From the NCBI RefSeq assembly GCF_000260985.4, contig NC_017857.3, positions 1,240,001 through 1,304,000 on the forward strand: a stretch of 64,000 bases of DNA. The letters are read 5' to 3'. Positions within the stretch are counted from its first letter, which is position 1. Each line of letters begins with the position of its first letter. The DNA comes from Methylophaga nitratireducenticrescens (GTDB lineage: Bacteria; Pseudomonadota; Gammaproteobacteria; Nitrosococcales; Methylophagaceae). The translations under genes were made by a program, and so were the position numbers. Below are positions 38,294 to 48,494 of this stretch, piece after piece. The notes beneath the pieces were generated by a model that was not told where the DNA came from, did no database searches, and saw only the letters and a program-made list of their open reading frames with translations.

Positions 38294-38877
38294 AGTTTCC
38301 CAAAGTTTATCTGGCCTCTGCTTCACCGCGACGGCGTGAACTCCTGACTCAAATCGGAGTCGATTTTTCGGTTTTAAATGTCTCCGTTGATGAATCTGTT
38401 TTAGCGGCTGAAACCCCATCCGATTATGCCAAGCGCATTGCATTAGCCAAAGCTCAGGCAGGCTGGAAATCCATAAAGACAGACTACCGCCCGGTTATTG
38501 GTGCCGATACTGCTGTGGTATTGCCTTCACAGCACATTCTCGGCAAGCCGGAAAACCAGCAGCAGGCAGAAGCGTTTTTGCGGCAATTATCTGCTAACAG
38601 CCATCAGGTGCTCAGTGCAGTGGCGATTGTCTGGCAACAGCAACATTGGCTAAGCTTACAAATCAGTGAGGTGCAATTCAAAAAGCTGAGTTCAGCCGAA
38701 ATTGATTGGTATCTTGCCACCGGAGAAGGAAAAGATAAGGCTGGAGGATATGCGGTACAGGGCTTAGCTGCTATGTTTATAGAAAATATCAAAGGTAGTT
38801 ACTCCGGCGTGATGGGCCTGCCATTATTTGAAACCAGTCAGCTTTTACAACAGGTAAACATCGTCAATGAGCAGTGA
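38290..38877 (+). CDS. Maf-type nucleoside triphosphate pyrophosphatase (YhdE group)
   Basis: A 195-residue protein starting at ATG 38290 (MKFPKVYLASASPRRRELLT). The longer open frame is inside rlmH. Maf proteins hydrolyse non-canonical or modified NTPs, the YhdE group dTTP/UTP. Motifs SASPRRRELL, GADTAVVLPS and KDKAGGYAVQGLA agree with that group. Overlaps the rng start by 11 bases. Confidence 0.93.
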   Translation: MKFPKVYLASASPRRRELLTQIGVDFSVLNVSVDESVLAAETPSDYAKRIALAKAQAGWKSIKTDYRPVIGADTAVVLPSQHILGKPENQQQAEAFLRQLSANSHQVLSAVAIVWQQQHWLSLQISEVQFKKLSSAEIDWYLATGEGKDKAGGYAVQGLAAMFIENIKGSYSGVMGLPLFETSQLLQQVNIVNEQ

Positions 38878-40339
38878 AATTCTGATTAATGTCACGCCCA
38901 GTGAAACCCGCGCAGCAGTGGTGGAAAACGGTGTATTGCAGGAGATTTTTATTGAGCGGAGTGAACATCGTGGATTAGTTGGCAACATTTACAAAGGAAA
39001 AGTCTGCCGGGTATTACCTGGAATGCAGGCAGCCTTTGTTGAGATCGGCTTATCCCGTGCGGCTTTTCTGCATGCTTCAGATATTTCGATTCCCAAAGGA
39101 CAGTCTGGTGATTTAAAAGAAGCCCCGCGAATTACACCGCCGATTACCAGCCTGCTACGCGAGGGAGATGAGCTGTTGGTACAAGTCATCAAGGATCCGA
39201 TGGGTAGTAAAGGCGCACGATTAACCACTCAATTATCAGCTTCTTCGCGATATCTGGTGTACATGCCTGAAGCTGAGGGAATTGGTATCTCCTTGAAAAT
39301 CGAGGATGAAAACGAGCGTGAACGTCTGAAAAACTGTTTATCAGAGTTGTTAGGCCTGCAACAGGGAGGCTATATTTTACGGACCTCAGCCGAAGGTATC
39401 AGTGATACAGAATTACGAGCTGATCTGGATTTTCTACACCGGTTGTGGGAAAAACTGCGTCAACGCGTCACTTCCACACGATGTGGTGAAGCGTTATATC
39501 AGGACTTGCCGTTAACGTTACGTGCCTTACGGGATCTGTTTAGACCTGATATTGATCGCATCCGCATTGATGCTGCAGAAACTTTTAAAGAGGCCCAGCA
39601 GTTTGCTGAAGGCTTTATGCCAGAATGTGCTGCGAGGTTGGAGCATTATCGGGGGGATCGTCCGTTATTTGATTTATTTGGTGTGGAAGATGAGATTCAA
39701 AAAGCATTGGATCGAAAGGTGCCACTGAAGTCGGGTGGTTACGTGATCTTTGATCAAACCGAAGCGATGACCACTGTTGATGTGAATACGGGTGGATTTG
39801 TCGGTCATAAAAATCTGGAAGAAACTATTTTCAAAACCAATCTTGAAGCCGCTCAAGCCATAGCACGCCAGTTACGCGTACGTAATCTTGGCGGCATTAT
39901 CATCATCGATTTTATCGATATGGAAGAAGCCCGTCATCGCGAGCAGGTTTTGCGTACACTGGAAAAAGCCATGTTGCTGGATAGAGCCAAACATAATATC
40001 TGTGCGGTTTCCGAACTGGGGTTGGTGGAAATGACCCGTAAACGCACGCGTGAAAGTCTGGGTCATATCCTGTGTGAGCCCTGTCCCTGCTGTGATGGTC
40101 GGGGCTATACCAAAAATGTAGAAACGGTCTGTTATGAGATTTTCCGTGAAATTCTGCGTGAATCGCGTCAATACGAATCGAAACAGTTTCTGGTGCTGGC
40201 CTCTCAAGACGTGATTGATCGTCTTAATGATGAAGATTCCACAAAAGTGGCTGAGTTAGAGCAATTTATTAGTAAACCGATTCTGTTTCAGTGTGAGCCT
40301 CAATATGGCCGTGAACAATTTAATGTGGTGCTGATGTAG
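38867..40339 (+). CDS. rng: ribonuclease G
   Basis: A 490-residue endoribonuclease of the RNase E/G family. The S1-containing N-terminus (GNIYKGKVCRVLPGMQAAFV), the DNase-I-like catalytic domain with TVDVNTGGFVG and IIIDFIDMEEARHR, and the zinc-link cysteines in CEPCPCCDGRG are all present. It has no long C-terminal scaffold, which separates it from RNase E. It matures 16S rRNA 5' ends. Confidence 0.96.
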   Translation: MSSEILINVTPSETRAAVVENGVLQEIFIERSEHRGLVGNIYKGKVCRVLPGMQAAFVEIGLSRAAFLHASDISIPKGQSGDLKEAPRITPPITSLLREGDELLVQVIKDPMGSKGARLTTQLSASSRYLVYMPEAEGIGISLKIEDENERERLKNCLSELLGLQQGGYILRTSAEGISDTELRADLDFLHRLWEKLRQRVTSTRCGEALYQDLPLTLRALRDLFRPDIDRIRIDAAETFKEAQQFAEGFMPECAARLEHYRGDRPLFDLFGVEDEIQKALDRKVPLKSGGYVIFDQTEAMTTVDVNTGGFVGHKNLEETIFKTNLEAAQAIARQLRVRNLGGIIIIDFIDMEEARHREQVLRTLEKAMLLDRAKHNICAVSELGLVEMTRKRTRESLGHILCEPCPCCDGRGYTKNVETVCYEIFREILRESRQYESKQFLVLASQDVIDRLNDEDSTKVAELEQFISKPILFQCEPQYGREQFNVVLM

Positions 40340-40341
40340 TT

Positions 40342-43300
40342 ATGTCGCTAATGCATCGCAGCCTGCATATTGCAGGCAGACAAGTTACCAATATTGTGGT
40401 TATGACTGCGGTGATCATGCTGGTCTGTGTTGGACTGGCGTACTGGTTTTCCAATGCCATTGCCGAACGAAAAGATGAAATTGCAGCATGGGCGACTGAA
40501 AAAACCGGTTATCCGATTCAGATTGGTGAAGCAGGTCTTTACTGGTTTGATCTGTTTCCAAAATTAATGGTGACCGATATTTCGGTGATGCAGGCAGAGC
40601 CGGATATTGGTGAACTGTTTACCGCAGAAGAGCTTTATATCGGTGTCGATCTGATTGCCAGTTTGCAGCAAAGAGAGTTGGTGGTTGATTCGGCACGTAT
40701 CTCTGGTTTGCAATTGGGTATTAAACGTTCTGTTGATGGTGATATCAGCCTTATCGGTCTGCAGGGAAAGTCTGCCGATCAGAAATTTGATGAAACACAG
40801 ATTGACTGGGTCGAGCAGCTCCGCTCATGGCGTGATATCGAACTATTGTCAGCTAAAATTCAATTCGAAGACCAGCTGCAACCACAATTCAGTGGTCTTT
40901 ATGAAGTAAATCAACTGGCATTAATGCAGGGCAAAAAATCCACATTGATAGGTGATATTCAGTTACCTAATCACCTGGGGCAACAACTTAGTTTTACCCT
41001 AGATGCCGTGTTAACGTCATCAGGCATTTCAAATTGGCAGATTAATCAGCTGGATGCCAGACAATTGCAACTGGCCACAATTTTTCAGAATCAGCGTATG
41101 AAGGATGTGTCTGTGACACGGGGCCGTGCTGATGTCAGTGTTGTTATTGGTTCAAACTTGAATAAACAATGGCAGGGGCAAATTCAGCTTACGGATGTTG
41201 GACTGGAAAACCTGAGTCATCCGGACCGTGGATCAGTCACTATAAATGCTTTGTCAGGGGAATTTAACTGGCAGGGAGATTGGATTGCGTGGCAATTAGC
41301 TGCCGAGCCGATTCAGCTAACTATTGATGATGACAGTTGGCCTCAGTCCACATTAAATCTGCAGTTTTCAGAAACTGATGGCTGGTTTGCAGAAACCAGT
41401 TTTGTTCGGCTCAGCGATCTGACAGCGTTAGCCTTATTGAGTGATAAATCGCCTGCGCTGCTAGCACAGTATCAGCCCGCTGGTGATATCCGTGAGTTAC
41501 AACTATCACTGAACAGTAATAATGAACTTCAGTCTGCAAAGATGATTGTGGATGAGTTTGCCAGTCAACCGGTGGATGAGGTACCAGGGGTGACCGGACT
41601 CAGTATGGAGGTAGAGTGGGAGCCAACTTCAGCGCGAGCATTGATTACCAGCCGTAACCTGACGTTATATGCACCTGCCTGGTTGCCGGAGGCGATTTAT
41701 TTTGATGTGGCCGATGCTAATCTGGACTGGAATACTGCTGAAACGAGCTGGCAGATGCAATTGACGGATCTGAATATCTGGAATAATGATCTGACAGTCC
41801 GTGGCAAAGTAGGGCTTGAACATCAGACTGAAACTACCTTTGCTGATATAGATATACAAATGCTGGATGTGGCCATAGCGAAATGGTTGAGTTATGTACC
41901 ACGTTCAATTCTGGATCCGGATTATCTCAAGTGGGCAGAAAATGCTTATACCAGCGGTCAGATTGAAACGGGAAGCCTCAAATTGAAAGGCAATTTGGCC
42001 GATTTTCCATTTACCGATAAGAATACTGCGAACGAATTTGAAGCGAGCCTTAATGTCATTGATGTCGGACTGGATTATGGTAAAGGATGGCCGGTATTGG
42101 AAAATATTAATGGCCAAGTGCTGAGCAGCGGCAACAAATTGGAGATATTGCCTGAAACCGGCAGAATTGCCGGGTTTGACTTTGTTGATGTCAGCGCAGT
42201 TATTGACAAAGTTTATGCTGGTAAACCGATGCTGGATTTGACGGGATTGTTATCGGGTAGCACACAGAACGCCCTAGATTTTTTACAGATGAGTCCGCTC
42301 AGTACCCGTTATGGTGAGATAACGAATTGGGTGAAAGCTCAAGGCAAAAGCACTATTGCTCTTAACTTGAAAATTCCATTGCTTGATCCGAATGCCACTG
42401 ATGCCGATGGTCATGTCAGTTTTGAAACCAGTCAGCTCACGGTTACCGCCATGCCGGATATGCCGATTCAAAATATCAACGGCCAGTTATTCTTCAGTAA
42501 TGATGGGGTAAACGCAGAGGCGATTACCGCCACTTTTTTAGACAGGCCTACCACGATTGATGTCATACCAGGAACCGAATCGACATTGGTGACCGCAAAA
42601 GGTGAGATATCCAGTCAGCAGCTGGCGCAGCTATGGCAGGGCAAAATGCCTGGCTTTGTAAAAGGCACGACGCAATATCAAGCCAATGTGGAGGTGAGTG
42701 AAAAGTCACTAGGCGAATTTGATACCGATATTCGGGTGACTTCTGAACTGGCGGGGCTGACAATTGAGGCTCCGGAACCGCTGGGGAAAACTGCCGCTGA
42801 TAAACGTTTATTAGATATTAAATTGATTAAAGATGACAAAGGGAACTCATTACTGCAATTAAATTATGCTGATATAGCAGGCGCTGTCTGGCTGCTTGAG
42901 GATTCTGCTCGCGGTGAAATTACTATTGGCATTCCAGAGCCTGAGCTACCGGCAAGCGGTATTCGATTAAGAGGGCGTCTGAACGAGTTGTCCATTTCGG
43001 AGTGGACGCAATGGCAACAAACCTGGTTGGCAGACAGCGTCACTGAACAAAACTTCGATAATTGGCCAGCAATTGATATTGATCTGGCGGTGGATAATCT
43101 GCGGTTTAACCAGTGGGTACTTAACGACGTTCAAACCAAAGCATCTCAACGTAACCAAATCTGGCAAATGGATATTCAATCTCGGCAGCTAAGAGGCGAT
43201 ATTCGTTGGCCCGTTGATTCTGATTTACTTCCCACGTTGCACTTTGATTTTGTTGATCTACAACTACCCGCAACCAACAATCAGTCAAACAGCCACAAAA

Positions 43301-44151
43301 AATTTAATTCCGAGTTATGGCCAAGCTTTCAGTTAAACATTGATAGTTTGACAGTTGATGGGATGCAACTGGGACGCGTACAGGCCCGGGCGCTTCAGCA
43401 AGGGAATAGCTGGTTGTTGCAAAGTGCCAGTATGCAATCGGCAGTGTTACAAGCGGAACTGGATGGAGTCTGGCAAAAAAACGACCTTGCGGATAGCAGT
43501 CAGTTAAATCTAAAACTCACCAGTAATGATCTTGCTGGCTTATTTGAGGATTTAGGTTATCAAGCAGCCATTCACTCCAACCAGGTTGAAGTTACCGGAC
43601 AGTTTAGCTGGCCAGACGAACCGTTAAATCTCTCAATGGCCAACCTGCAAGGCAATTTGAATCTGCAAATAGATGATGGTCAATTGGTGGATGTTGAGCC
43701 AGGTGCAGCAGGACGAATATTTGGCTTAATGAGTTTTGCCGCTATTCCACGCCGGCTGGCACTGGATTTCAGTGATTTTTTCGGTAAAGGTTTTTCGTTC
43801 AGAGAAATCAGTGGCGATTTTCAATTTGCCAATGGTCAGGCGGTTACTGATAACTTGAATATGCGTGGCGACAGCGCCAGTATTGATGTTACCGGACCGA
43901 TTAATATTGTTGATAGAACCTATCACCAAACAGTTGTTGTTACGCCAAATGTATCATCCACCCTGCCACTTGCCGGTGCTGTTGCTGGAGGACCGGTTGG
44001 TCTGGGAGTCGGAACAGCGATTTATCTGGTTGATCGAATTGCCGGTCGGTTATTTGATCGGGATCTGGTCGATATGATTAGCTATCGTTATCGACTCACC
44101 GGTTCCTGGGATGATCCTGATCTCTCGTTGAAAGCCCCAGAAAAGCCTTAG
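40342..44151 (+). CDS. yhdP: YhdP-family AsmA-like giant envelope protein
   Basis: A 1269-residue protein with one N-terminal membrane helix (VVMTAVIMLVCVGLAYWFSN) and a long repeated beta-rich periplasmic region of the DUF3971/AsmA_2 class. YhdP in E. coli bridges the inner and outer membrane and carries phospholipids outward. The conserved C-terminal block GFSFREISGDFQFANGQAVT and LAGAVAGGPVGLGVGTAIYL confirm the family. It starts two bases after the rng stop and precedes tldD, an order common in gammaproteobacteria. Confidence 0.93.
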   Translation: MSLMHRSLHIAGRQVTNIVVMTAVIMLVCVGLAYWFSNAIAERKDEIAAWATEKTGYPIQIGEAGLYWFDLFPKLMVTDISVMQAEPDIGELFTAEELYIGVDLIASLQQRELVVDSARISGLQLGIKRSVDGDISLIGLQGKSADQKFDETQIDWVEQLRSWRDIELLSAKIQFEDQLQPQFSGLYEVNQLALMQGKKSTLIGDIQLPNHLGQQLSFTLDAVLTSSGISNWQINQLDARQLQLATIFQNQRMKDVSVTRGRADVSVVIGSNLNKQWQGQIQLTDVGLENLSHPDRGSVTINALSGEFNWQGDWIAWQLAAEPIQLTIDDDSWPQSTLNLQFSETDGWFAETSFVRLSDLTALALLSDKSPALLAQYQPAGDIRELQLSLNSNNELQSAKMIVDEFASQPVDEVPGVTGLSMEVEWEPTSARALITSRNLTLYAPAWLPEAIYFDVADANLDWNTAETSWQMQLTDLNIWNNDLTVRGKVGLEHQTETTFADIDIQMLDVAIAKWLSYVPRSILDPDYLKWAENAYTSGQIETGSLKLKGNLADFPFTDKNTANEFEASLNVIDVGLDYGKGWPVLENINGQVLSSGNKLEILPETGRIAGFDFVDVSAVIDKVYAGKPMLDLTGLLSGSTQNALDFLQMSPLSTRYGEITNWVKAQGKSTIALNLKIPLLDPNATDADGHVSFETSQLTVTAMPDMPIQNINGQLFFSNDGVNAEAITATFLDRPTTIDVIPGTESTLVTAKGEISSQQLAQLWQGKMPGFVKGTTQYQANVEVSEKSLGEFDTDIRVTSELAGLTIEAPEPLGKTAADKRLLDIKLIKDDKGNSLLQLNYADIAGAVWLLEDSARGEITIGIPEPELPASGIRLRGRLNELSISEWTQWQQTWLADSVTEQNFDNWPAIDIDLAVDNLRFNQWVLNDVQTKASQRNQIWQMDIQSRQLRGDIRWPVDSDLLPTLHFDFVDLQLPATNNQSNSHKKFNSELWPSFQLNIDSLTVDGMQLGRVQARALQQGNSWLLQSASMQSAVLQAELDGVWQKNDLADSSQLNLKLTSNDLAGLFEDLGYQAAIHSNQVEVTGQFSWPDEPLNLSMANLQGNLNLQIDDGQLVDVEPGAAGRIFGLMSFAAIPRRLALDFSDFFGKGFSFREISGDFQFANGQAVTDNLNMRGDSASIDVTGPINIVDRTYHQTVVVTPNVSSTLPLAGAVAGGPVGLGVGTAIYLVDRIAGRLFDRDLVDMISYRYRLTGSWDDPDLSLKAPEKP

Positions 44152-44192
44152 TATCTGCTAAGATAATCAATTTATCACGTAGTCCATAAGCA

Positions 44193-45635
44193 ATGACAAA
44201 CCCTATATTTGACCAACTGGAACAACAGATCCTGGTGCCTGCTGAGTTGCAATCACAGGATATTGAGCGAGCTTTATCTAGCGCTATGCGGCCGGGTATT
44301 GATTTTGCTGATTTATATTTTCAGCGTTCGCGAGGCGAAAACTGGCTAATGGATGACGGCATCATAAAAGATGGGGGCTATCATCTTGAGCAAGGTGTTG
44401 GGGTCAGGGCCTGTAGCGGTGAAAAAACCGGCTTTGCCTATTCCGATGATCTAAATTTGAAATCATTACTGGAAGCGACGAATGCTGCCAGTGCCCTGGT
44501 AAAACATGGGCAACAGAATAAGGTTAATGCTCGTAAATATATGCATGCCGCACCACTGTATTCTGATCATGATCCCATATTAGGTATGGATACGCAGACA
44601 AAATTGAATTTGTTGCGTGAAGCAGATGCTTATGCTCGCGCTGCTGATCCCCGTGTAACACAGGTGACAGTTAGTTTGGCGGGCAGTCTGGAACATATTT
44701 TAATTGCAGCCAGTGATGGCACTTACGCAGCAGATATCCGTCCATTAATTCGTATGAACGTCAGCGTGATCGTTGAATCAAAAGGCCGGCGTGAACGCGG
44801 CAGCGCGGGTGGGGGCCGCCGTCTGGATTATCAGTATTTTATTGATAATGATTTAGCCGTAGGTTTTGCCAAAGAAGCCGTGCGGCAGGCCCTGGTGAAT
44901 CTGGATGCTGTTGATGCTCCAGCGGGTTCTATGCCAGTGGTATTGGCTTCGGGGTGGCCAGGCGTATTGCTGCATGAAGCGGTTGGCCATGGACTTGAAG
45001 GTGATTTCAACCGGCGCGATACTTCAGCCTTTTCTGGCAAAATGGGAGAACAGGTCGCTTCTCCATTATGTACGGTAGTGGATGATGGCACCTTAACAGA
45101 TCGACGTGGCTCGTTAACTATTGATGATGAAGGCACACCTACGGAATTCACTACCTTAATTGAAAACGGTCGACTGACGGGGTATATGCAGGATAAATTA
45201 AATGCTCGGTTAATGGGAACCCGCAGTACTGGCAATGGACGGCGAGAATCCTATGCACATTTGCCAATGCCACGCATGACCAACACCTATATGCTGGCCG
45301 GACAACACAAAGCAGAAGAAATTATCGCCAGTGTTGAAAAAGGTATTTATGCGGTTAATTTTGGTGGGGGGCAAGTCGATATTACTTCTGGCAAATTTGT
45401 ATTTTCCAGTAGTGAGGCTTATCTGATTGAAAATGGCAAAGTGACTCGTCCTGTCAAAGGTGCCACGCTGATCGGCAATGGTCCCGAAGTCATGAATCGC
45501 ATCAGCATGGTGGCTGATGATCTCGAGTTGGATTCGGGCATTGGTAATTGCGGTAAAGAAGGACAAAGTGTTCCGGTTGGTGTCGGTCAGCCTACATTGA
45601 AAATTGATGCTTTGACGGTCGGAGGCACGGCATAA
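44193..45635 (+). CDS. tldD: metalloprotease TldD
   Basis: A 480-residue zinc protease subunit that acts with PmbA (TldE), processing peptides such as microcins and CcdA. The zinc motif [12 protein letters not shown] is at His 261-His 266, and the C-terminal cysteine/glycine segment [20 protein letters not shown] is conserved. No pmbA gene is in this window. Its stop overlaps the start of the PP-loop gene (TAATG). Confidence 0.96.
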
Positions 45636-46687
45636 TGTGTTCAGCGCATAAAGCCGTTGCATTGATTTCAGGCGGTCTCGACTCCATGCTTGCGGTGCGT
45701 GTTCTGCAGGAACAGGGGATTGAAGTTGAAGGTATTAACTTTTTTACCGGTTTCTGCGTCGAAGGGCATACGCACGCGATTCGAAATCAGCATAAAGACA
45801 AGCAGAAACGTAATAATGCATTGTGGGTAGCCGAACAGCTCGGGATCAAACTACACATCATTGATGTGATCGAAGAATACAAAGAGGTATTGCTCAATCC
45901 AAAGCATGGTTACGGCGCGAATATGAATCCCTGCCTGGACTGTAAAATCTTTATGGTCAAAAAAGCGGTTGAATGGGTGAAAGAAAATCATATGCATGGT
46001 TTTGATTTCATTATCACCGGAGAAGTCATTGGTCAGCGTCCCAAATCACAATTAAAGCGCACTATGCCGATTGTAGCAGCGGAGTCTGGGGCTGATGATC
46101 TGTTATTACGTCCGTTATGCGCCAAAAATCTCCAGCCAACTAAACCTGAGCGTGAAGGGTGGGTGGACCGGAGTAAACTGTATGACTTTCATGGACGTAA
46201 TCGCAAGCCGCAAATTGCTTTGGCAAAACAGTTTGGCTTTGACGATTTTGCCACCCCTGCTGGAGGGTGTTGTTTTCTGACTGATGAGAGTTATTCGAGT
46301 AAGTTGGTTGATTTATGGACCGCCAGAAACAGTCGTGAATATGAACTCGATGATATTATGTTATTGAAAGTGGGTCGACATCTTCGGCCAAAAGCCGATT
46401 TTAAAATGATCATTGCCCGGGATGCTGGAGAGAGCAAGTTCCTCGAAGGGTATCGCAAACAATTTATCAGTCTGTACTCGATTAGCCATAATGGCCCCAT
46501 GGCAATAATAGATGGGGACATTGAACAGCAGGATTTTCCGCTGGTCGCATCGATTGTCGCGCGTTTTGGTCAAGGTCGTTATGCTGATGAGGTCGAAGTG
46601 GAGATTTCTTTACCCGACCAGTCTTCGCAACAAATTCAGGCAAGGCCAATCGCTGCAGAGCAGGTTCCACAGGAGTGGTACGTGTGA
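45635..46687 (+). CDS. PP-loop ATP pyrophosphatase, MnmA/ThiI-like, of unknown target
   Basis: A 350-residue protein. The N-terminal PP-loop SGGLDSML is at residues 12-19, followed by a Cys pair in MNPCLDCKIFMVKKA. In MnmA/ThiI-like enzymes such Cys residues carry persulfide for tRNA 2- or 4-thiolation. FIITGEVIGQRPKSQLKRTM and ATPAGGCCFLTDESYSSKLV are further conserved-looking blocks. The C-terminal third may be an NFACT-R-like RNA-binding domain, which I cannot confirm. The start has GGAGG nine bases upstream and overlaps the tldD stop. A TusA gene overlaps its stop, so the pair most likely acts together in sulfur transfer. Exact product is unknown. Confidence 0.8.
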   Translation: MCSAHKAVALISGGLDSMLAVRVLQEQGIEVEGINFFTGFCVEGHTHAIRNQHKDKQKRNNALWVAEQLGIKLHIIDVIEEYKEVLLNPKHGYGANMNPCLDCKIFMVKKAVEWVKENHMHGFDFIITGEVIGQRPKSQLKRTMPIVAAESGADDLLLRPLCAKNLQPTKPEREGWVDRSKLYDFHGRNRKPQIALAKQFGFDDFATPAGGCCFLTDESYSSKLVDLWTARNSREYELDDIMLLKVGRHLRPKADFKMIIARDAGESKFLEGYRKQFISLYSISHNGPMAIIDGDIEQQDFPLVASIVARFGQGRYADEVEVEISLPDQSSQQIQARPIAAEQVPQEWYV

Positions 46688-46911
46688 AACAAGTTGAATT
46701 GGATGCAAGGAGACTGTTGTGTCCCTTGCCAGTCATTAAAACCCAGAATAAAGTGGGCGAATTATCGCCTGGGGATATTCTCAAGGTGATATGTACAGAT
46801 CCTGGAGCATTAAGTGATATTCCGGCATGGGCCAGAATTCATGGGCATCAGATTGTCGGGACAGTGAAAGAAAGTGATGAAATAATGATTACGGTCCAAG
46901 TTGGTGCGTAG
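46684..46911 (+). CDS. TusA-family sulfur carrier protein
   Basis: A 75-residue protein starting at GTG 46684, preceded by AGGAG at 46671-46675. The catalytic Cys is in the signature LDARRLLCPLPVIKTQNKV. TusA-family proteins hand persulfide sulfur to acceptors such as MnmA through a relay. Its start overlaps the stop of the PP-loop gene (GTGTGA), a strong coupling sign. No TusBCD or TusE genes are in the window. Confidence 0.9.
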   Translation: MKQVELDARRLLCPLPVIKTQNKVGELSPGDILKVICTDPGALSDIPAWARIHGHQIVGTVKESDEIMITVQVGA

Positions 46912-47084: not shown

Positions 47085-48494
47085 ATGTCAGCCGAAAATG
47101 TGCTTCAGATAATTAAGGACGAGGACGTTAAATTCCTTGATTTCCGTTTCACCGATACGCGTGGTAAAGAGCAGCACGTATCTTACCCTGCCCATTCAAT
47201 CGATGAAGATACTTTCTCAGAAGGTGTGATGTTTGATGGGTCATCGGTTGCAGGTTGGAAGGGTATTAATGAATCGGATATGATTCTTATGCCAGATGCT
47301 TCGACTGCTGTTTTGGATCCGTTCATGGACGACACAACACTAATCGTTCGTTGTGATATCGTTGAACCGGCAACTATGCAAGGATATGAGCGTGATCCAC
47401 GCAGTGTGGCCAAACGTGCAGAAGCCTACTTGGCGTCTACCGGTTTGGCAGACACTGCTTTCTTTGGGCCTGAACCAGAATTTTTCATTCTTGATGATGT
47501 TCGCTGGGGCAGTGATATTTCTGGCTCATTTTATAAAATCGACTCAGACGAATCCTCATGGAATACCGAAAAAGTATTTCCTGATGGTAACAAAGGCCAC
47601 CGTCCAAGTGTTAAAGGTGGTTATTTCCCAGTACCTCCGGTTGATTCACTTCAAGACATTCGTTCAGCCATGTGTTTAACCATGGAAGAAATGGGTCTGG
47701 TAACAGAAGTACATCACCATGAAGTAGCTACTGCTGGTCAGTGTGAAATTGGTACCAAGTTCAACACGTTGGTCAAAAAAGCCGACGAGGTTCAAACACT
47801 GAAATATGTCGTGCATAACGTTGCGCATGCCTACGGTAAAACGGCAACATTTATGCCAAAACCTTTGGTTGGTGATAATGGTAGTGGTATGCATGTTCAC
47901 CAATCTTTAGCGAAAGATGGTGAAAACCTGTTCTCTGGTAATAAATATGGTGGCTTGTCAGAAACGGCTTTGTTTTATATCGGCGGTATTATTAAACATG
48001 CTAAAGCTTTGAATGCGTTTACCAACCCTGGTACCAACAGTTACAAACGTCTGGTTCCCGGATTTGAAGCGCCTGTTATGCTGGCTTATTCAGCGCGTAA
48101 CCGTAGTGCCTCTATTCGTATTCCGTTTGTCAGCAATCCAAAAGGACGTCGTATTGAAGTACGTTTCCCTGACCCATCAGCCAACCCATACCTGGCATTC
48201 AGTGCAATGATGATGGCTGGTCTGGATGGCATCAAAAACAAGATCCACCCTGGCGATGCGATGGATAAGGATTTGTACGACTTGCCTCCAGAAGAGGATG
48301 CTGCGATTCCAAAAGTATGCCATGCCCTGGATCAGGCGTTGGCAGAGCTGGACAAAGATCGTGCTTTCTTAACTGAAGGTGGTGTATTTACTGATGACAT
48401 GATCGATGGATATATCCATTTGAAGATGGAAGAAGTCACTCGCCTGCGTATGGAAACACACCCTGCTGAGTTTGATCTGTACTACAGTCTGTAA
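47085..48494 (+). CDS. glnA: glutamine synthetase, type I
   Basis: A 469-residue enzyme making glutamine from glutamate and ammonia. The adenylylation tyrosine is Tyr 398 in [11 protein letters not shown], so activity should be controlled by GlnE. Active-site segments [25 protein letters not shown] and [20 protein letters not shown] match the dodecameric beta-type GSI. It has a sigma-54 promoter with NtrC sites upstream and a strong terminator downstream. Confidence 0.98.

Follow-up and report, generated by a model that had tools for sequence, protein, structure and literature searches.

A TusA-linked candidate for tRNA 4-thiouridine synthesis

Methylophaga nitratireducenticrescens carries a gene pair, encoding a PP-loop ATPase and a TusA-family sulfur carrier, that is probably a synthase of 4-thiouridine (s4U) in tRNA, fed with sulfur by TusA and acting in place of ThiI, as judged from its sequence and from its distribution among genomes. 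The pair lies in a 64,000-nucleotide stretch of contig NC_017857.3 (positions 1,240,001 to 1,304,000, forward strand), hereafter the window, whose numbering is used below unless the contig is named. Thiolation of tRNA at U8 (s4U8) serves tRNA stability and protection from near-UV light, and its synthesis is generally attributed to ThiI (PMC4041423).

The M. nitratireducenticrescens genome encodes a full-length RudS (L177:3842-4789; PF04463, E 2.8e-34, followed by PF08349, or DUF1722, E 1.1e-43), a protein reported to be a desulfidase that acts specifically on tRNA s4U (PMC11417400). It also encodes its own MnmA (contig 2124259-2125317, 447.9 bits) and TtcA (contig 1180755-1181588, 492.3 bits), and no full ThiI was detected: the ThiI model finds only the PP-loop protein (35.7 bits) and MnmA (21.8 bits). 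A genome that holds an s4U eraser together with the writers of 2-thiouridine 34 (s2U34) and 2-thiocytidine 32 (s2C32), and is without ThiI, needs another s4U writer if the substrate of RudS is as known; the PP-loop protein is the sole unassigned ThiI-like match that we found there. RudS is not a neighbor of the gene, as a tblastn search with the genome's own RudS across the 174 PP-loop loci described below returned nothing at E 1e-5.

Exclusion with ThiI and association with the desulfidase domain

The C-terminal domain of the PP-loop protein, NFACT-R_2 (PF18297), was followed through 38 relatives, 274 genomes of the class (Gammaproteobacteria) and 299 of the phylum. Among the relatives, 31 have PF18297 and two have full ThiI, both of the latter without PF18297. 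TtcA is over its cut-off in 32 of these 38 genomes, including 29 of the 31 with PF18297, and so shows no such exclusion, and MnmA is over its cut-off in 36. The class sample has 138 genomes with PF18297 and 21 with full ThiI, a count that takes as ThiI two genomes just under the cut-off (G296, 253.8 bits; G188, 246.5 bits), and these share a single genome where 10.6 would be expected (Fisher test, P = 4.8e-6). Restricting the class to the 236 genomes with completeness of 90% or more and contamination of 5% or less leaves 123 and 18, with none shared against 9.4 expected (P = 8e-7), while counting by family gives 84 and 18, with one shared of about 171, a total that we assumed (P = 7e-5). In the phylum, where only ThiI rows over the cut-off were counted, PF18297 (46 genomes) and full ThiI (108) are never found together, against an expectation of 16.6 (P = 1.4e-10). 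The sole class genome with both, G248, carries a divergent form of the PP-loop protein that is described below. One member of the window genome's own genus (G008, 94% complete) has no match to PF18297, full ThiI or PF04463, a possible case of joint loss within the genus.

The same two writers track PF04463, the TudS/RudS desulfidase domain. Among class genomes that have PF18297 but not ThiI, 93 of 137 carry it, as do 12 of the 20 that have ThiI alone, the single genome that has the two together and 7 of the 116 that have neither; in the phylum the counts are 42 of 46 for PF18297, 95 of 108 for ThiI and 17 of 145 for neither. PF18297 and ThiI thus foretell PF04463 about equally. When PF04463 open reading frames (ORFs) of at least 290 residues are used as a proxy for RudS, the class counts become 60 of 137, 10 of 20 and 2 of 116 (PF18297 only, ThiI only, neither). 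Three of the seven class exceptions that have PF04463 and neither writer (G093, G116, G118, G127, G143, G213 and G238) belong to families having a PF18297 genome, and 12 of the 17 phylum exceptions to families in which PF18297 or full ThiI occurs in another genome of the sample. Separately, the 116 of 274 class genomes with neither full ThiI nor PF18297, only 7 of which have PF04463, may lack s4U altogether. An earlier note on this stretch, made from the sequence alone, had suggested that the pair might make a sulfur-modified tRNA base or another sulfur compound; the exclusion with ThiI and the link to PF04463 favor the former and sharpen it to s4U.

This pattern meets a question raised by the authors of the RudS study, who describe two RudS-bearing groups in which ThiI of the E. 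coli type is missing and who conjectured either ThiI homologs of other architecture or loss of s4U (PMC11417400). A protein that joins a PP-loop to NFACT-R_2 would fit the first of these guesses.

Domain architecture and predicted fold

The N-terminal part of the protein matches PP-loop domains of the MnmA/ThiI kind (PF03054, E 2.9e-12; PF02568, E 1.4e-08), and these two models together with PF18297 match all 53 members of alignment A2. Against curated models, it scores 48.1 bits (cut-off 284) and 44.7 bits (cut-off 236.95) for MnmA and 35.9 bits (cut-off 264.5) for ThiI (TIGR00342), while the 11 families listed as matching it include no TtcA model. Orthology to MnmA, ThiI or TtcA was accordingly rejected on these sub-cut-off scores and on the separate MnmA and TtcA of the genome, in agreement with the earlier note, which had set the protein apart from all three by its layout. 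The PP-loop, NPCLDC and GGCCFLT motifs picked out in that note are all present (residues 12-17, 98-103 and 210-216), and the C-terminal domain, whose mapping it had proposed, is NFACT-R_2 at residues 247-349. Neither a THUMP nor a rhodanese domain occurs among the Pfam matches, and the PP-loop motif begins already at residue 12.

A sequence search of solved structures gave weak MnmA matches alone (best E 2.7e-05). In an AlphaFold model of the protein (mean predicted local distance difference test (pLDDT) 87.3; predicted template modeling score (pTM) 0.83), residues 3-219 match the ThiI-RNA complex 4kr6 (Z 15.4, root-mean-square deviation (rmsd) 2.8, 170 aligned residues, 24% identity), with further PP-loop matches to YcfA (the best, Z 15.8), LarE (14.7) and MnmA 2hma (13.5). 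Residues 248-350 match residues 451-569 of chain H of the RqcH complex 8s1u, taken to be RqcH itself (Z 13.7, rmsd 2.2, 101 aligned). A common fold by itself shows no function of the PP-loop protein.

The resemblance to RqcH, which is reported to recruit tRNA-Ala to 50S complexes (PMC8373112), and the absence of THUMP among the Pfam matches would also suit an enzyme that thiolates RNA elsewhere, whether another tRNA uridine, another base or, given the connection of NFACT-R with ribosome rescue, rRNA. We regard this as unlikely, since PF18297 occurs where ThiI does not and tracks PF04463 in both class and phylum, and since s2U34 and s2C32 are covered by the genome's own MnmA and TtcA.

The TusA link and two cysteine patterns

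Conservation of the adjacent tusA gene was assessed in 174 loci, reduced to 173 by the loss of a truncated gene (L064) and to 163 distinct proteins. Cysteines at positions 41, 100, 103, 212 and 213 occur together in 167 of the 173 rows and in 158 of the 163 distinct proteins (hereafter the five-Cys type), and five of these 158 are cut by a contig end. TusA lies directly downstream in 138 of the 153 five-Cys proteins that have sequence left; at two of the other 15 (L164 and L167), a TusA is found farther off in the fetched stretch. The linkage is similarly evident in subsets: TusA was detected by motif in 53 of 58 loci from the genome searches (of the loci left over, three run out within 341 nt, one, L043, lacks TusA, and the fifth, L017, has one by BLAST), by motif within 210 nt in 20 of 28 phylum-sample loci (L148-L175), and by tblastn as the next gene in 70 of the 77 named loci whose downstream stretch reached 330 nt, with 30 in the overlapping register of the window; three of the 80 named loci had a shorter stretch and were dropped. 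A comparison that covered homologs of the window's own neighbor genes found tldD upstream in 12 of 76 loci and glnA downstream in 32 of 64. The TusA link is therefore beyond chance, and stronger than that of tldD or glnA. Its absence from related genomes, which would have spoken against the module proposed earlier, was not what we observed. In G058 (L185, G058:C1 about 280281-280901, minus strand) the PP-loop gene persists as fragments beside a shortened TusA match, and the two seem to have decayed together; G202 (L184), of the same genus, has an intact pair, and neither genome has a PF04463 match.

The linked TusA of M. nitratireducenticrescens matches PF01206 (E 1e-20) and has a CPLP motif, of the CPxP type, but falls below the cut-offs of the E. 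coli TusA equivalog PRK00299 (45.1 against 78 bits) and of YedF (37.4 against 79 bits). It shares 37% identity with the genome's second TusA, which adjoins a DsrE2-like gene (L178:2417-3116, contig about 868916-869615, minus strand), and this suggests that distinct sulfur routes have their own TusA carriers.

A second form of the PP-loop protein, the three-Cys type, retains the CXXC and one Cys in GGCLLT and is without Cys41. It was found in five genomes (G248, G132, G123, G243 and G082; loci L179-L182 and L186, respectively), none of which has an adjacent TusA and one of which, G248, additionally encodes full ThiI. All five come from eight places that we chose, although G082 was also fetched in the phylum search. 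An ORF with the CXXC is present in 173 of the 174 loci, the ORFs having been picked by NPCxxC in this larger survey, and by SGGxDS plus a later GG-C in the motif survey; Cys100, Cys103 and Cys212-213 are invariant in all 53 rows of alignment A2, which like the 80 named loci came from a pattern containing GGCCFLTD. Because of these selections, the contrast of the two types rests on the loci from the genome searches and the eight chosen ones.

CXXC-C cysteines are reported to bind a [4Fe-4S] cluster in Thermotoga maritima LarE, as are three cysteines in TtuA and NcsA (PMC9283937, PMC10067955). By analogy, the CXXC-C set of the window protein may be a catalytic or cluster site, with the extra pair of cysteines serving TusA. 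Some caution is due on the latter, as an extra Cys beside the motif of T. maritima LarE is described as dispensable (PMC9283937).

The enzyme type can exist without TusA, since 15 of the 153 five-Cys proteins and all five three-Cys proteins have none adjacent. This leaves room for a variant in which s4U is made but TusA is merely co-transcribed, sulfur coming straight from IscS or sulfide, as T. maritima LarE is reported to take sulfur from IscS (PMC9283937). We consider this quite unlikely: TusA is kept beside 138 of the 153 five-Cys proteins but the upstream TldD in just 12 of 76 loci, both extra cysteines are missing from the five TusA-less three-Cys proteins, and the linked TusA has only 37% identity to the genome's second TusA, the neighbor of the DsrE2-like gene.

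Points against and remaining alternatives

A number of observations weigh against s4U synthesis by the pair, or limit the counts on which it is based. The model of the PP-loop protein is of low confidence around its cysteines (mean of 52 for residues 41-50, 65 for 91-100 and 64 for 211-220), and 15 of the 153 five-Cys proteins are not directly followed by TusA. The loci were best-scoring matches per search plus the eight places, which were picked because they scored low or to serve as comparisons. The 80 named loci cannot reveal a three-Cys type because their search pattern contained GGCCFLTD. The genome counts refer to the PF18297 domain and not to the full protein, and the broken remnant in G058 was counted as positive. 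Fisher's test takes each genome or family to be independent, and some genomes belong to both the class and the phylum sample; as genomes are kin, the P values for exclusion are too small. On the side of the desulfidase, PF04463 covers short TudS as well as RudS, and 44 of the 137 PF18297 genomes without ThiI have no PF04463, although ThiI genomes are similar in this respect (8 of 20). ThiI is reported in 94% of species encoding DUF1722 and in 637 of 884 RudS genomes (PMC11417400), while it occurs in just 11 of our 73 class genomes with RudS-length ORFs, in a sample and by criteria that differ from those of that study.

The PP-loop protein could instead thiolate a small molecule or build a sulfur cofactor in the manner of LarE, which is among its best PP-loop structural matches (Z 14.7). 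TusA can supply several pathways, and its presence would suit such a role too. However, the RNA-binding domain is kept in 53 of 53 members, and the exclusion with ThiI in class and phylum is set against it, making this reading very improbable. That the protein is a redundant or diverged paralog of MnmA or TtcA is scarcely credible, for although PF03054 and the MnmA models match its N-terminal part, the scores are far under the cut-offs, the C-terminal domain is different and full MnmA and TtcA are also present.

Proposed mechanism and implications

For the s4U synthase that we favor, we infer the position of the modification, most likely U8, as well as the substrate, the sulfur route and the cluster. 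A cysteine desulfurase would load a persulfide onto the CPxP Cys of the co-translated TusA, which would then dock on the PP-loop protein and pass its sulfur via Cys41 and one of Cys212 or Cys213, that is, the two cysteines absent from the TusA-less three-Cys proteins. The CXXC-C set (Cys100, Cys103 and Cys212 or Cys213) may bind a [4Fe-4S] cluster or form an active-site persulfide. The PP-loop would adenylate the uridine, with AMP then displaced by sulfur, while the NFACT-R_2 domain would grip the tRNA, replacing the N-terminal ferredoxin-like domain (NFLD) and THUMP of ThiI.

Beyond this genome, we lean towards a wider proposal, somewhat less assured than the assignment of the pair itself: that about half of the sampled Gammaproteobacteria, and further members of the phylum, rely mainly on a ThiI-independent, TusA-fed synthase to write s4U, that NFACT-R is a tRNA reader in place of THUMP, that the enzyme comes in a five-Cys chemistry with a dedicated TusA and a three-Cys chemistry without one, and that it fills the gap in RudS organisms lacking ThiI. 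If true, about half of the class genomes sampled (138 of 274 with PF18297, as compared to 21 with full ThiI) write s4U with a different enzyme, TusA acquires a direct role in s4U, and an answer is offered for the ThiI-less RudS groups, which the RudS study (PMC11417400) leaves open.

Organization of the locus

The features of the pair and its upstream neighbor are collected in Table 1. The sulfur-carrying Cys of TusA, by homology, is that of the CPLP motif. The stop codon of the PP-loop gene (TGA, 46685-46687) overlaps the GTG start of tusA at 46684 by 4 nt (GTGA), as the earlier note had observed, and an AGGAG lies 8 nt 5' of this GTG. An alternative in-frame GTG occurs upstream at 46675 in the ORF list, but the start at 46684 is favored because of the AGGAG spacing and because several relatives have an ATGA or GTGA overlap at the same junction, ATGA among them. 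Such a layout predicts that the two genes would be translationally coupled.

Table 1. Features of the PP-loop/tusA locus, in window coordinates
Feature	Position	Strand	Length	Basis or remark
PP-loop ATPase + NFACT-R_2 protein; proposed tRNA s4U synthase	45635..46687	+	350 aa	ORF list, Pfam, NCBIfam, model
SGGLDS, PP-loop motif, residues 12-17	45668..45685	+		ATP binding/adenylation by homology; invariant in 53/53 rows of alignment A2
Cys41 in TGFCVEGHT	45755..45757	+		Present in five-Cys type, absent from three-Cys type
NPCLDC, residues 98-103, CXXC of the CXXC-C motif	45926..45943	+		Sequence, alignment A2
GGCCFLT, residues 210-216, with Cys212-Cys213	46262..46282	+		Single Cys left in three-Cys type
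NFACT-R_2, predicted RNA-binding domain, residues 247-349	46373..46681	+		PF18297, E 3.6e-33; structural match 8s1u_H
AGGAG, likely tusA ribosome-binding site within PP-loop gene	46671..46675	+		Sequence; role inferred
TusA-family sulfur carrier, from GTG 46684	46684..46911	+	75 aa	PF01206, E 1e-20
CPLP motif of TusA	46720..46731	+		Sequence
tldD, PmbA/TldD domains	44193-45635			Upstream of PP-loop gene; Pfam

The stop codon of tldD shares one base with the start of the PP-loop gene (TAATG). Upstream, genes for an RNase G/E-family protein, YhdP and TldD follow one another (38867-45635); as TldD adjoins in only 12 of 76 homologous loci, this row beside the PP-loop gene is a local arrangement. 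The ORF at 47085 looks like a glutamine synthetase, from a reading of its sequence. A promoter scan of the operon gave six sites against a shuffle mean of 6.0, no excess, and six terminator-like sites were counted across it against a shuffle mean of 3.1 (standard deviation 2.1). The nearest named homologs of the PP-loop protein are from Methylophaga sp. UBA2689 (94% identity) and M. muralis (92%).

Comparison with known systems

In a 2014 abstract, Burroughs and Aravind (RNA Biol 11:360) reportedly described NFACT RNA-binding domains within further architectures and predicted for them a new pathway of tRNA 4-thiouridylation involving TusA-like proteins. The window pair shares the reported features of that prediction, namely a ThiI-like PP-loop and NFACT-R, plus the genetic link to TusA. 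A 2022 paper counts the PF02568-PF18297 combination among its markers of 4-thiouridylation (PMC9239080). The s4U function thus appears to be a published prediction. The earlier description of the module as uncharacterized stands in so far as no report testing a PP-loop + NFACT-R_2 protein was found in literature searches, whose coverage mostly leaves out subscription papers and preprints, but a function of this kind has reportedly been predicted and the domain pair has served as a marker. What the present analysis adds is the exclusion with ThiI, the link to the desulfidase and the TusA-less three-Cys type, with overlap with the 2014 work possible.

Among characterized enzymes, ThiI has the adenylating PP-loop domain in common with the window protein (4kr6, Z 15.4), for which the same product is proposed. 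The window protein differs in having no THUMP or rhodanese match and in scoring 35.9 bits where the ThiI model demands 264.5. E. coli ThiI is reported to receive its sulfur from IscS on a rhodanese module (PMC10067955), whereas the window protein has a linked TusA.

The sulfur transferases with a PP-loop and a [4Fe-4S] cluster, as described for TtuA, NcsA, T. maritima LarE and archaeal U8-tRNA sulfurases (PMC9283937, PMC10067955), combine the PP-loop with three cysteines, arranged as CXXC-C in LarE, and the window protein is alike in this. It adds to them two cysteines (Cys41 and one of Cys212 or Cys213), the TusA link and NFACT-R_2, and its cluster is putative.

MnmA likewise has the PP-loop domain, and in a HMMER alignment the second Cys of NPCLDC aligns with the Cys of MnmA NPDILC. 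In E. coli, MnmA, the tRNA s2U34 thiolase, is fed by TusA through TusBCD and TusE. TusA as the source of sulfur would thus be common to MnmA and the window protein, for which that role is proposed; the C-terminal domain of the window protein is different, and a true MnmA is encoded elsewhere in the genome.

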